Assembly: GCA_003169735.1 (NCBI GenBank)
Contig: PNAP01000031.1
Span: 20,844 to 84,843, forward strand
Origin: Chloroflexota bacterium
Lineage (GTDB): Bacteria > Chloroflexota > Limnocylindria > Limnocylindrales > CSP1-4
Reading direction: 5' to 3'
Length of the DNA stretch: 64,000 nucleotides
This document shows, in pieces, positions 10,995 through 13,122 of this stretch. Every line of letters begins with the position of its first letter. Positions within the stretch are counted from its first letter, which is position 1. Made by a program: the position numbers and the translations under genes. The notes beneath the pieces are model-generated. The model saw only the letters and a list, made by a program, of their open reading frames with translations. It was not told the DNA's origin and did no database searches.

Positions 10995-11422
10995 ACGGTC
11001 CCAACCTCGGTCGATTGGGGTTGCGCCAGCCCGAGATCTACGGCACGACGACCCTGGCCGAGGTTGTCGCGGCGGTGCGCGCGCGGGCCGAGGCGGCCGG
11101 CTCGAGCGTGGAGGCGTTCCAATCGAACCACGAGGGCGCCCTGATCGATCGCCTCGAGCAGCGCGACTACGACGGCGTGATCATCAACCCGGGCGCATTG
11201 GCCCACACGAGTTACGCCCTGCACGACGCGCTGCTCGGCTGCGAACGGCCGGTCATCGAGGTCCACGTATCCGACATCCGCTCACGCGAAGCCTGGCGGC
11301 GCGTCTCGGTGATCGAGCCGGTCGTCACCGGCCAGGTCATCGGCCACGGCTGGCACGGCTACATCGAGGCCGTGGATCTGTTGCTCTCGGCTGCTGCGAC
11401 GGAGGGCGGAGGCCGGTCATGA
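10976..11422 (+). CDS. aroQ: Type II 3-dehydroquinate dehydratase
   Basis: MRILLLNGPNLGRLGLRQPEIYG..., NHEGALIDRL, INPGALAHTSYALHDAL, EVHVSDIRSRE. Confidence 0.95.
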   Translation: MRILLLNGPNLGRLGLRQPEIYGTTTLAEVVAAVRARAEAAGSSVEAFQSNHEGALIDRLEQRDYDGVIINPGALAHTSYALHDALLGCERPVIEVHVSDIRSREAWRRVSVIEPVVTGQVIGHGWHGYIEAVDLLLSAAATEGGGRS

Positions 11423-11997
11423 GACTCATCAGGCGGGTCGACCGTCGAGTGTGGGAGGTCATCGGCCCGGTCGGGGTGATTGGCGCCGCGGCATCGCTGA
11501 TCCTCTTCTGCACCAGCCAACCGCCGATCTTCTCGTCGGCGGCCCTGGCGATCGTGGGGGCTGTTGGTGCGGTCGGCCTGCGCCGCTTCGGCCACCGGCT
11601 CCTGGCTTCGTTTGCCGCGCTCTGCACGTTCATGACGTCGGGCCACCCGGTCTGGAGCCTGTTCGATGACGTCACGAACCCACATGTGACCCAATCGGGC
11701 GAAACGTTCCACATCTATGACCCGGCCCAAGTACCGACGCTCGCGGTGCTAAGCGCGGCTCTCGTTGTATTCGCCCTGATCATGTGTGCCGCGTACTTCT
11801 GGCAACCTCAACGGCCCTCAAGCGAACCGCTTCCTGGATGGCCGCAACCTCCCGCGGCGTCTCTGCCGCAGGGTGCCGCGTTGGACCGCCCGGCGTTCAA
11901 GACCGACAGGCAGGCCGGCGCCGGGGCCCCAGATCTGCCCGTCTCGAGCTCCGGGGACATCGAGCCAACCGTGGCGCAGGCCGAACCGAGTCGATAG
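11419..11997 (+). CDS. Hypothetical membrane protein; C-terminal tail lies inside a repeat element
   Basis: MRLIRRVDRRVWEVIGPVGVIGAAASLILFC... with hydrophobic segments; start overlaps aroQ stop. Confidence 0.6.
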   Translation: MRLIRRVDRRVWEVIGPVGVIGAAASLILFCTSQPPIFSSAALAIVGAVGAVGLRRFGHRLLASFAALCTFMTSGHPVWSLFDDVTNPHVTQSGETFHIYDPAQVPTLAVLSAALVVFALIMCAAYFWQPQRPSSEPLPGWPQPPAASLPQGAALDRPAFKTDRQAGAGAPDLPVSSSGDIEPTVAQAEPSR

Positions 11998-12078
11998 CCC
12001 GGTCGATTCGACCCTTGGCTCTGGCGAACGCGATCCGTAGTCCGAGGACCTGTCGCTCTTGAACGGCCAGCGGTCCAA
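11881..12078. mobile_element. ~198-bp MITE-like element with 30-bp terminal inverted repeats (copy 1)
   Basis: Left TIR TTGGACCGCCCGGCGTTCAAGACCGACAGG (11881-11910); right TIR 12049-12078, reverse complement TTGGACCGCTGGCCGTTCAAGAGCGACAGG, 26/30 match. Confidence 0.55.
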
Positions 12079-12103
12079 CCGCCGGGCGGGCGTTGCCGTC
12101 GTC

Positions 12104-12703
12104 CTAGAGAAAGACGATCGCGTCGCCACCTGGATCGTGCCCTTGTTGAAGGGCTTTCAGAGCGACGTGTCCGGGAACGGGGAAGTCCGTTAGGAACTCG
12201 GCCGCGGCGTCGCGCATGAAGCGGCGATTCGTTCGGGTATCGGCGAGCAGCAGGATCAACCGGTCGACTCCCCCGTCGCGCCGTTTCTGGCCGAGCCGCC
12301 TCTTCAGTTCCTGCCCGTCGCGAGGGCGCGTCTCGCTCTCGATCCCGATCCTCCACTTAGCGACTCGGGCGAGCGCATCCCAAGCCCTCAGATCGCCAGG
12401 ATTCGGGAATGGGACCTCCGTGCGCCAAGCGACGTCCGGATGGAGTCGACCCCTCAGTCGGTCCAACAGCGCGGCATGTGCTCGATCCCGACGAGGCGAA
12501 CCTGCCGGGTAGGGCCGTGCGCGAAGGGTGAGTCCCACGACCGCGACGAGTCGGGTCGCCAGGACCACACCAACATCGGCGAGTTCGCCTCGCTCGATTC
12601 GCCCGACCGTCGAGTGCGACACTCCAATGGCCCGCCCGACATCCCTCTGGCTAAGACCGGCTGCGACTCGAGAACGGCGAAGTTCCTCCCCGAGGTCGCG
12701 CAT
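12104..12703 (-). CDS. XRE/HTH_3 family transcriptional regulator with C-terminal domain
   Basis: MRDLGEELRRSRVAAGLSQRDVGRAIGVSHSTVGRIERGEL = canonical helix-turn-helix. Confidence 0.8.
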   Translation of the reverse strand: MRDLGEELRRSRVAAGLSQRDVGRAIGVSHSTVGRIERGELADVGVVLATRLVAVVGLTLRARPYPAGSPRRDRAHAALLDRLRGRLHPDVAWRTEVPFPNPGDLRAWDALARVAKWRIGIESETRPRDGQELKRRLGQKRRDGGVDRLILLLADTRTNRRFMRDAAAEFLTDFPVPGHVALKALQQGHDPGGDAIVFL

Positions 12704-12832
12704 CGTTCGCCGACCGTCGCGAAGACCACGGTCGGCAGGGCGTTCGGTCGCTGGCACAGGACCACGGTGAGCCTCGCCGCTCTACTGCGACTTGTGCGTA
12801 GCCGCGTTCGTGCGTGCCGGCCAGCTGCGGGC

Positions 12833-13032
12833 CCGGACCGCCCAGCGTTCAAGACCGACCGATCGCCCACCGAGTCGCGACGGTCCCCACATGGGGATCG
12901 GCCGTTCTGGCACCCGGAAGCTGTCCACTGAGCGTCGAAACCGATGGCGCCACCAACGAAAGACACCCGATCCGAGTCCGGGACCCCATCAGGGAGCGTC
13001 GACTCGTCGGTCTTGAACATGCAGCGGTCCAG
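12833..13032. mobile_element. ~200-bp MITE-like element with terminal inverted repeats (copy 2)
   Basis: Left CCGGACCGCCCAGCGTTCAAGACCGACCGA (12833-12862); right 13003-13032, reverse complement CTGGACCGCTGCATGTTCAAGACCGACGAG. Both ends match copy 1 TIRs. Confidence 0.55.
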
Positions 13033-13122
13033 AAGGACGCCACACGCGATCGAACCGCGGCGATTGGCGATGCTTGCCGCCCAACGCCCGACCGGGCCGG
13101 CCCATACGCCCGAGTCGAGCCG

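Follow-up and report, generated by a model that had tools for sequence, protein, structure and literature searches.

Bacterial genomes commonly carry short dispersed repeats of palindromic or inverted type, and for the REPs linked to RAYTs the partner protein is known. REPINs with RAYT (TnpA-REP) genes have been described, for example, in Pseudomonas fluorescens SBW25; there, as in the system reported here, two short inverted repeats form a non-autonomous unit with dispersed copies, and each distinct single-copy gene adjoins its own group of repeats (PMC3116915); the partly palindromic nature of those repeats is matched here by the arms of several loci. TIRtrons resemble the present case in that genes are decorated with gene-specific inverted repeats, some families of which are dispersed, but TIRYTs differ in that the HUH motif and the catalytic tyrosine are kept (PMC3733652). 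CGTC-tagged REPs are reported to have no dedicated transposase (PMC3733652); many of the arms found here carry a CGAC motif at their end, which recalls the tagged palindrome. Classical MITEs and composite transposons share with the present elements the short inverted ends, the non-coding nature, the occurrence in several copies and the direct copies around a gene.

The locus is part of a window of 64,000 nucleotides, the whole stretch of DNA that was analysed, from a Chloroflexota bacterium; gene content and a sister family with genomes of ~1.1 Mb also point to Chloroflexota, perhaps to Limnocylindria. Two elements, E1 and E2, flank a gene for an XRE-type protein in the window, and a search of the same 3.06-Mb genome recovered two more copies, E3 and E4, outside the window. 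The features are as follows.

11880-12079, no strand: element E1, ~200 bp, inverted arms of 25-31 bp, interior of 144 bp
11880-11910, plus strand: left arm of E1, core GGACCGCCCGGCGTTCAAGACCGAC
12049-12079, minus strand: right arm of E1, GGACCGCTGGCCGTTCAAGAGCGAC
12104-12757, minus strand: XRE/Cro-C1 HTH protein, 217 aa, GTG start, HTH_31/HTH_3 (aa 21-77)
12832-13033, no strand: element E2, ~200 bp, same arms, interior of 146 bp
12835-12859, plus strand: left arm of E2, GGACCGCCCAGCGTTCAAGACCGAC, 24/25 identical to the left arm of E1
13006-13030, minus strand: right arm of E2, GGACCGCTGCATGTTCAAGACCGAC
C111:7482-7682: element E3, between an ORF and nuoA, upstream of nuoA
C76:14442-14658: element E4, upstream of ffh

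The preliminary description had reported four arms in plus/minus/plus/minus order that make up two elements of 198 and 200 bp with matching ends. A pattern search of the window bears out the four arms, with 25-bp cores at 11883-11907, 12052-12076, 12835-12859 and 13006-13030, and a length of ~200 bp holds for each element; the interior lengths are measured between these cores. With up to 3 mismatches allowed, the arm pattern has exactly 4 matches in the window, against 0 expected from shuffles, which rules out chance repeats. The arms are complementary at 87% over 31 bp in E1 and at 80% over 25 bp in E2. E1 begins 25 bp beyond the stop of the XRE gene, on its 3' side, and E2, in the same orientation, sits ~75 bp upstream of the start. 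The interior blocks said to be shared by E1 and E2 are present as quoted, but the interiors of E1-E4 are not detectably similar when compared with shuffled sequence (best pair, p = 0.17). A membrane-protein ORF (11419-11997), downstream of the dehydroquinase gene, overlaps E1 with its 3' end, so that E1 supplies the final ~40 codons of this ORF.

A sequence model of the eight ends of E1-E4 matches those 8 and nothing else in this genome; all of them belong to ~200-bp elements (the assembly is ~93% complete). Fifteen of 25 arm positions do not vary among the ends, and the arms are kept as sequence, beyond complementarity alone, with a mismatched C/C at the variable position. This bears on a reading in which a structured RNA arises beside the XRE gene, with the inverted pair as the stem that closes it. 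The elements fold strongly (z about -5.1, -3.7 and -3.8), which is what such an RNA would lead one to expect, but most of the folding energy comes from the long arm stem, variable arm positions are uncompensated across the stem, the interiors are not conserved here, and no Rfam family matches at the elements; we consider the reading very improbable. There is no tRNA at the site either.

Among the other genomes searched (106 of the family and class, and a 400-genome sample of the phylum), full ends of the E1-E4 type are absent, and only isolated single ends, weak and at chance level, were met with. The intergenic region that holds E3 is ~245-270 bp shorter in two genomes of the same genus, in which the exact empty sites are obscured by too diverged flanks; a precise empty site for E1 and E2 was likewise not found in relatives. 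Since same-genus genomes have no matches and show shorter sites, a conserved regulatory pair at orthologous loci is rejected. No target-site duplication is visible by eye at E1-E4, and neither a transposase with matching terminal inverted repeats nor an autonomous element with these ends is among this genome's matches. Current activity of the elements in this genome is doubtful, because only four diverged copies exist.

Two of the sites differ in content between relatives. E2 and the XRE gene occupy the space that follows the acyl-CoA dehydrogenase gene on its downstream side, a variable spot, and in the relative G001 (L125 1-1336, C86) the same spot holds, by sequence, an apparent VOC protein and a RES/Xre-like toxin-antitoxin pair. 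The genes ffh and ftsY lie ~3 kb apart here (L128 4376-7414, G000 C76), with two ORFs without Pfam match and E4 between them; they are adjacent in G001 and G002, where the ~3-kb stretch with E4 is missing.

The XRE gene had been placed at 12104-12703. It extends over 12104-12757 instead, because the N-terminus read from the GTG start, MPATERPADRG, aligns with MATRERPADRG of homologues. HTH_31/HTH_3 is present in 29/30 members of the XRE family. The C-terminal domain (aa ~85-217) carries conserved E114, D122-x-RAWD127, E140-A-E142-TR, D147xQ and K158xRD; in the alignment of homologues R90, D91, E114, D122, R124, D147, K158 and D161, among others, are invariant, and D127, E140 and E142 are nearly so. 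These C-terminal ~130 residues have no match beyond chance in Pfam, NCBIfam, PHROGs or PDB sequences, and no nuclease or transposase model matched in profile searches. As read from the alignment, the succession is helix-strand-strand(D)-strand(ExE)-helix(K). BamHI has a PD-(D/E)XK core in its ExE variant, and we take the helix and strand order together with the D..ExE acidic residues to be a likeness to this core, at the level of motif only. Structure models of the protein from single sequence are too poor for judging the fold. No viral homologue was found, and plasmid matches are confined to the HTH part. A second homologue in this genome (L129 3833-4386; G000 C19:16832-17385) is split over two frames, and an inverted-repeat pair with different arms lies on its 3' side (L129 4492-4738).

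While XRE homologues were being checked, inverted-repeat pairs with gaps of ~90-180 bp and differing arms were first seen to adjoin many of them. The comparison, for which all genomes are draft assemblies, covers 62 loci, 60 of them fetched with ~5-kb flanks and two from this genome, and counts pairs at a score cut of 15 at a distance of no more than 250 bp from the gene. Such a pair is found at 31/62 XRE loci and at 13/161 other predicted genes nearby (p = 3e-11), about half of the XRE loci having no detectable pair; at random positions in the same loci the rate is 8.6%, and the highest of 500 draws gave 18%. Because 30 of the loci had brought the pattern to light, 31 others were counted separately, with 12/31 against 13/161 (p = 5e-5). 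A palindrome within the arms is clear in several loci (e.g. L203, L239, L213, L248) and weak on average and in E1-E4.

Long direct repeats (score ≥30) bracket the XRE gene at 6 loci, compared with 0/177 control positions. These repeats, in G016 twice, G005, G004, G031 and G123 (another family), are 82-198 bp long and coincide with a detected inverted-repeat element in 5/6 cases. The direct copies are spaced by 860-1460 bp and E1 and E2 by 952 bp; E1-XRE-E2 in the window has this element-gene-element layout too, in a more diverged form. Thus the proposal that the two elements form a composite mobile unit around one HTH gene was largely right, as direct copies bracket homologues in other genera, except that neither a transposase whose ends match nor an exact empty site for E1 and E2 was found. 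No clear enrichment (20% vs 14%) is seen for genes with inverted arms on both flanks, and a classical transposon of the type TIR-gene-TIR was set aside on that count. In G031 (C140; L216 2793-2990 and 3932-4129) the similarity between the direct copies that bracket the XRE gene extends ~20-30 bp past the arms at each end, and the elements hold extra internal arm-like palindromes; because of these two features the unit there may be larger or nested.

The arms of 22 loci, combined into a single query, were compared with 21 genomes. In G041, G031, G005, G016, G019, G013 and G045 there are dispersed matches on other contigs, frequently in the form of inverted pairs, and nearly all listed dispersed matches fall on the genome's own arms. 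Most G041 copies have a length of 160 bp, a conserved interior, sharp near-identical ends and unrelated flanks; the copies in G031 measure 149-159 bp. No target-site duplication was seen by eye in either set, and both behave as mobile repeat families rather than as operators. The term MITE-like, applied to E1 and E2 at the outset, is supported by the copies E3 and E4, by the shorter E3 site in the same genus and by the clean multi-copy families in relatives, and is weakened by the lack of target-site duplications.

The arms of each locus were further compared with the flanks of all others. Over all loci, the more identical the HTH recognition helices of two loci are, the more similar are their arms (permutation p = 0.001): at an identity of at least 0.8, 50% of pairs, few in number (n = 10), share arms, versus ~7% otherwise. 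The best examples of like helix with like arms are G034 (SHQQLRR) with G043 (SHQQLLR); G045 (SHAQVGR) groups with G010 and G029 by helix and arms, and the protein in the window (SHSTVGR) has GCGTTCAA in common with this group. When the test is confined to loci with detected pairs it is not significant (p = 0.12 for the recognition helix), and covariation of HTH and arms is therefore likely rather than certain.

Covariation of this kind requires binding alone and would suit an ordinary XRE regulator or silencer, of which the neighbouring arms would be the operators and the dispersed elements a regulon, or else repressed mobile elements moved by an unrelated enzyme. The HTH is of regulator type, and the positions of E3 and E4 upstream of nuoA and ffh point the same way. 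Against this, the pairs are found 3' and 5' of the XRE gene at similar frequency (20 vs 15 cases), which does not suit a plain operator; in G041 and G031 whole elements of ~160 bp have spread, sharp at their ends and conserved inside, which is unlike operators; XRE genes are bracketed by whole direct copies; the E3 copy is missing in same-genus relatives; and the long conserved C-terminal domain is left unexplained. We regard such a regulator as unlikely, and the cis-regulatory pair offered as an alternative in the preliminary description is the weaker rival, given the 3' placement and the spread of elements as mobile families elsewhere.

Ordinary MITEs of a lost DDE transposon, with XRE genes as preferred landing sites or as cargo of a composite unit, would account for the inverted arms, for the non-coding, dispersed, intergenic and lineage-specific copies and for the composite direct-repeat arrangement. 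Yet a separate lost transposon would have to be assumed for every genome, and all of them would have to target the same gene family; the arms track the HTH sequence, no target-site duplications are seen, and own-genome matches include no autonomous element with these ends. We hold this explanation to be improbable. Unlike in classical MITEs and composite transposons, no link to target-site duplication or a DDE transposase was found here, and the ends track a regulator-like gene.

The partner protein also separates the system from REPINs. A search of 19 of these genomes for PF01797 (Y1 transposase) found none, while the positive control worked, and so RAYT is not the partner in them. The partner is instead an HTH_31/HTH_3 protein whose C-terminal domain matches no known family, and not a Y1 (HUH) transposase; spacers are about 80-180 bp, and copy number is low in most genomes. 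The system works like REPIN/RAYT, yet it is not counted as a member, because its partner is not the enzyme that defines membership (PMC3116915, PMC3733652). The literature searched contained no report of repeats like these with an XRE or HTH protein as partner. Searched against IMG/VR and 84,980 species genomes of GTDB, the pattern of exact ends gave 22 single half-sites, which are taken as chance because none has a partner end (up to 3 mismatches, inverted, at element distance). The paired pattern is absent from IMG/VR, and plasmids and phages gave weak partial matches only.

We propose, at a probability of about 0.6, that E1 and E2 represent a miniature non-coding family of REPIN/MITE-like elements that is the partner of the XRE gene between them. 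The unit consists of two inverted arms of ~25 bp, which may be partly self-palindromic, around a spacer of ~90-180 bp. Each such XRE gene in this bacterial class has its own arm sequence and tends to lie beside or between full copies of the element, and in many genomes further copies are dispersed in the genome of the XRE gene. The HTH domain would recognise the arms as DNA, and the C-terminal domain would cut or join DNA at the paired arms and thereby copy or move elements in trans; recombination between direct copies would carry the gene along as an element-gene-element unit. That E1 and E2 belong to a mobile repeat family is highly probable, and we are equally confident that such families are partnered with this family of XRE genes. 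The HTH domain probably binds the arms. Whether the XRE protein itself mobilises the elements is put at a little under even odds. At somewhat less than even odds, the protein, with an XRE-type HTH and a nuclease-like C-terminal domain, stands for a new class of prokaryotic enzymes for transposition or repeat propagation. Such an enzyme would recognise inverted repeats in pairs and would spread both these and, as element-gene-element units, its own gene, with no HUH or DDE transposase involved.

The elements thus look like small mobile repeats of a kind not described so far, which have a protein partner of their own. A protein family that would be annotated just as an XRE regulator is linked in many genomes to its own repeat family. 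This offers a testable candidate for another route, beside that of the RAYTs, by which repeats of this sort are recognised and spread, and it suggests a likely function for an uncharacterised domain that occurs in many copies per genome.
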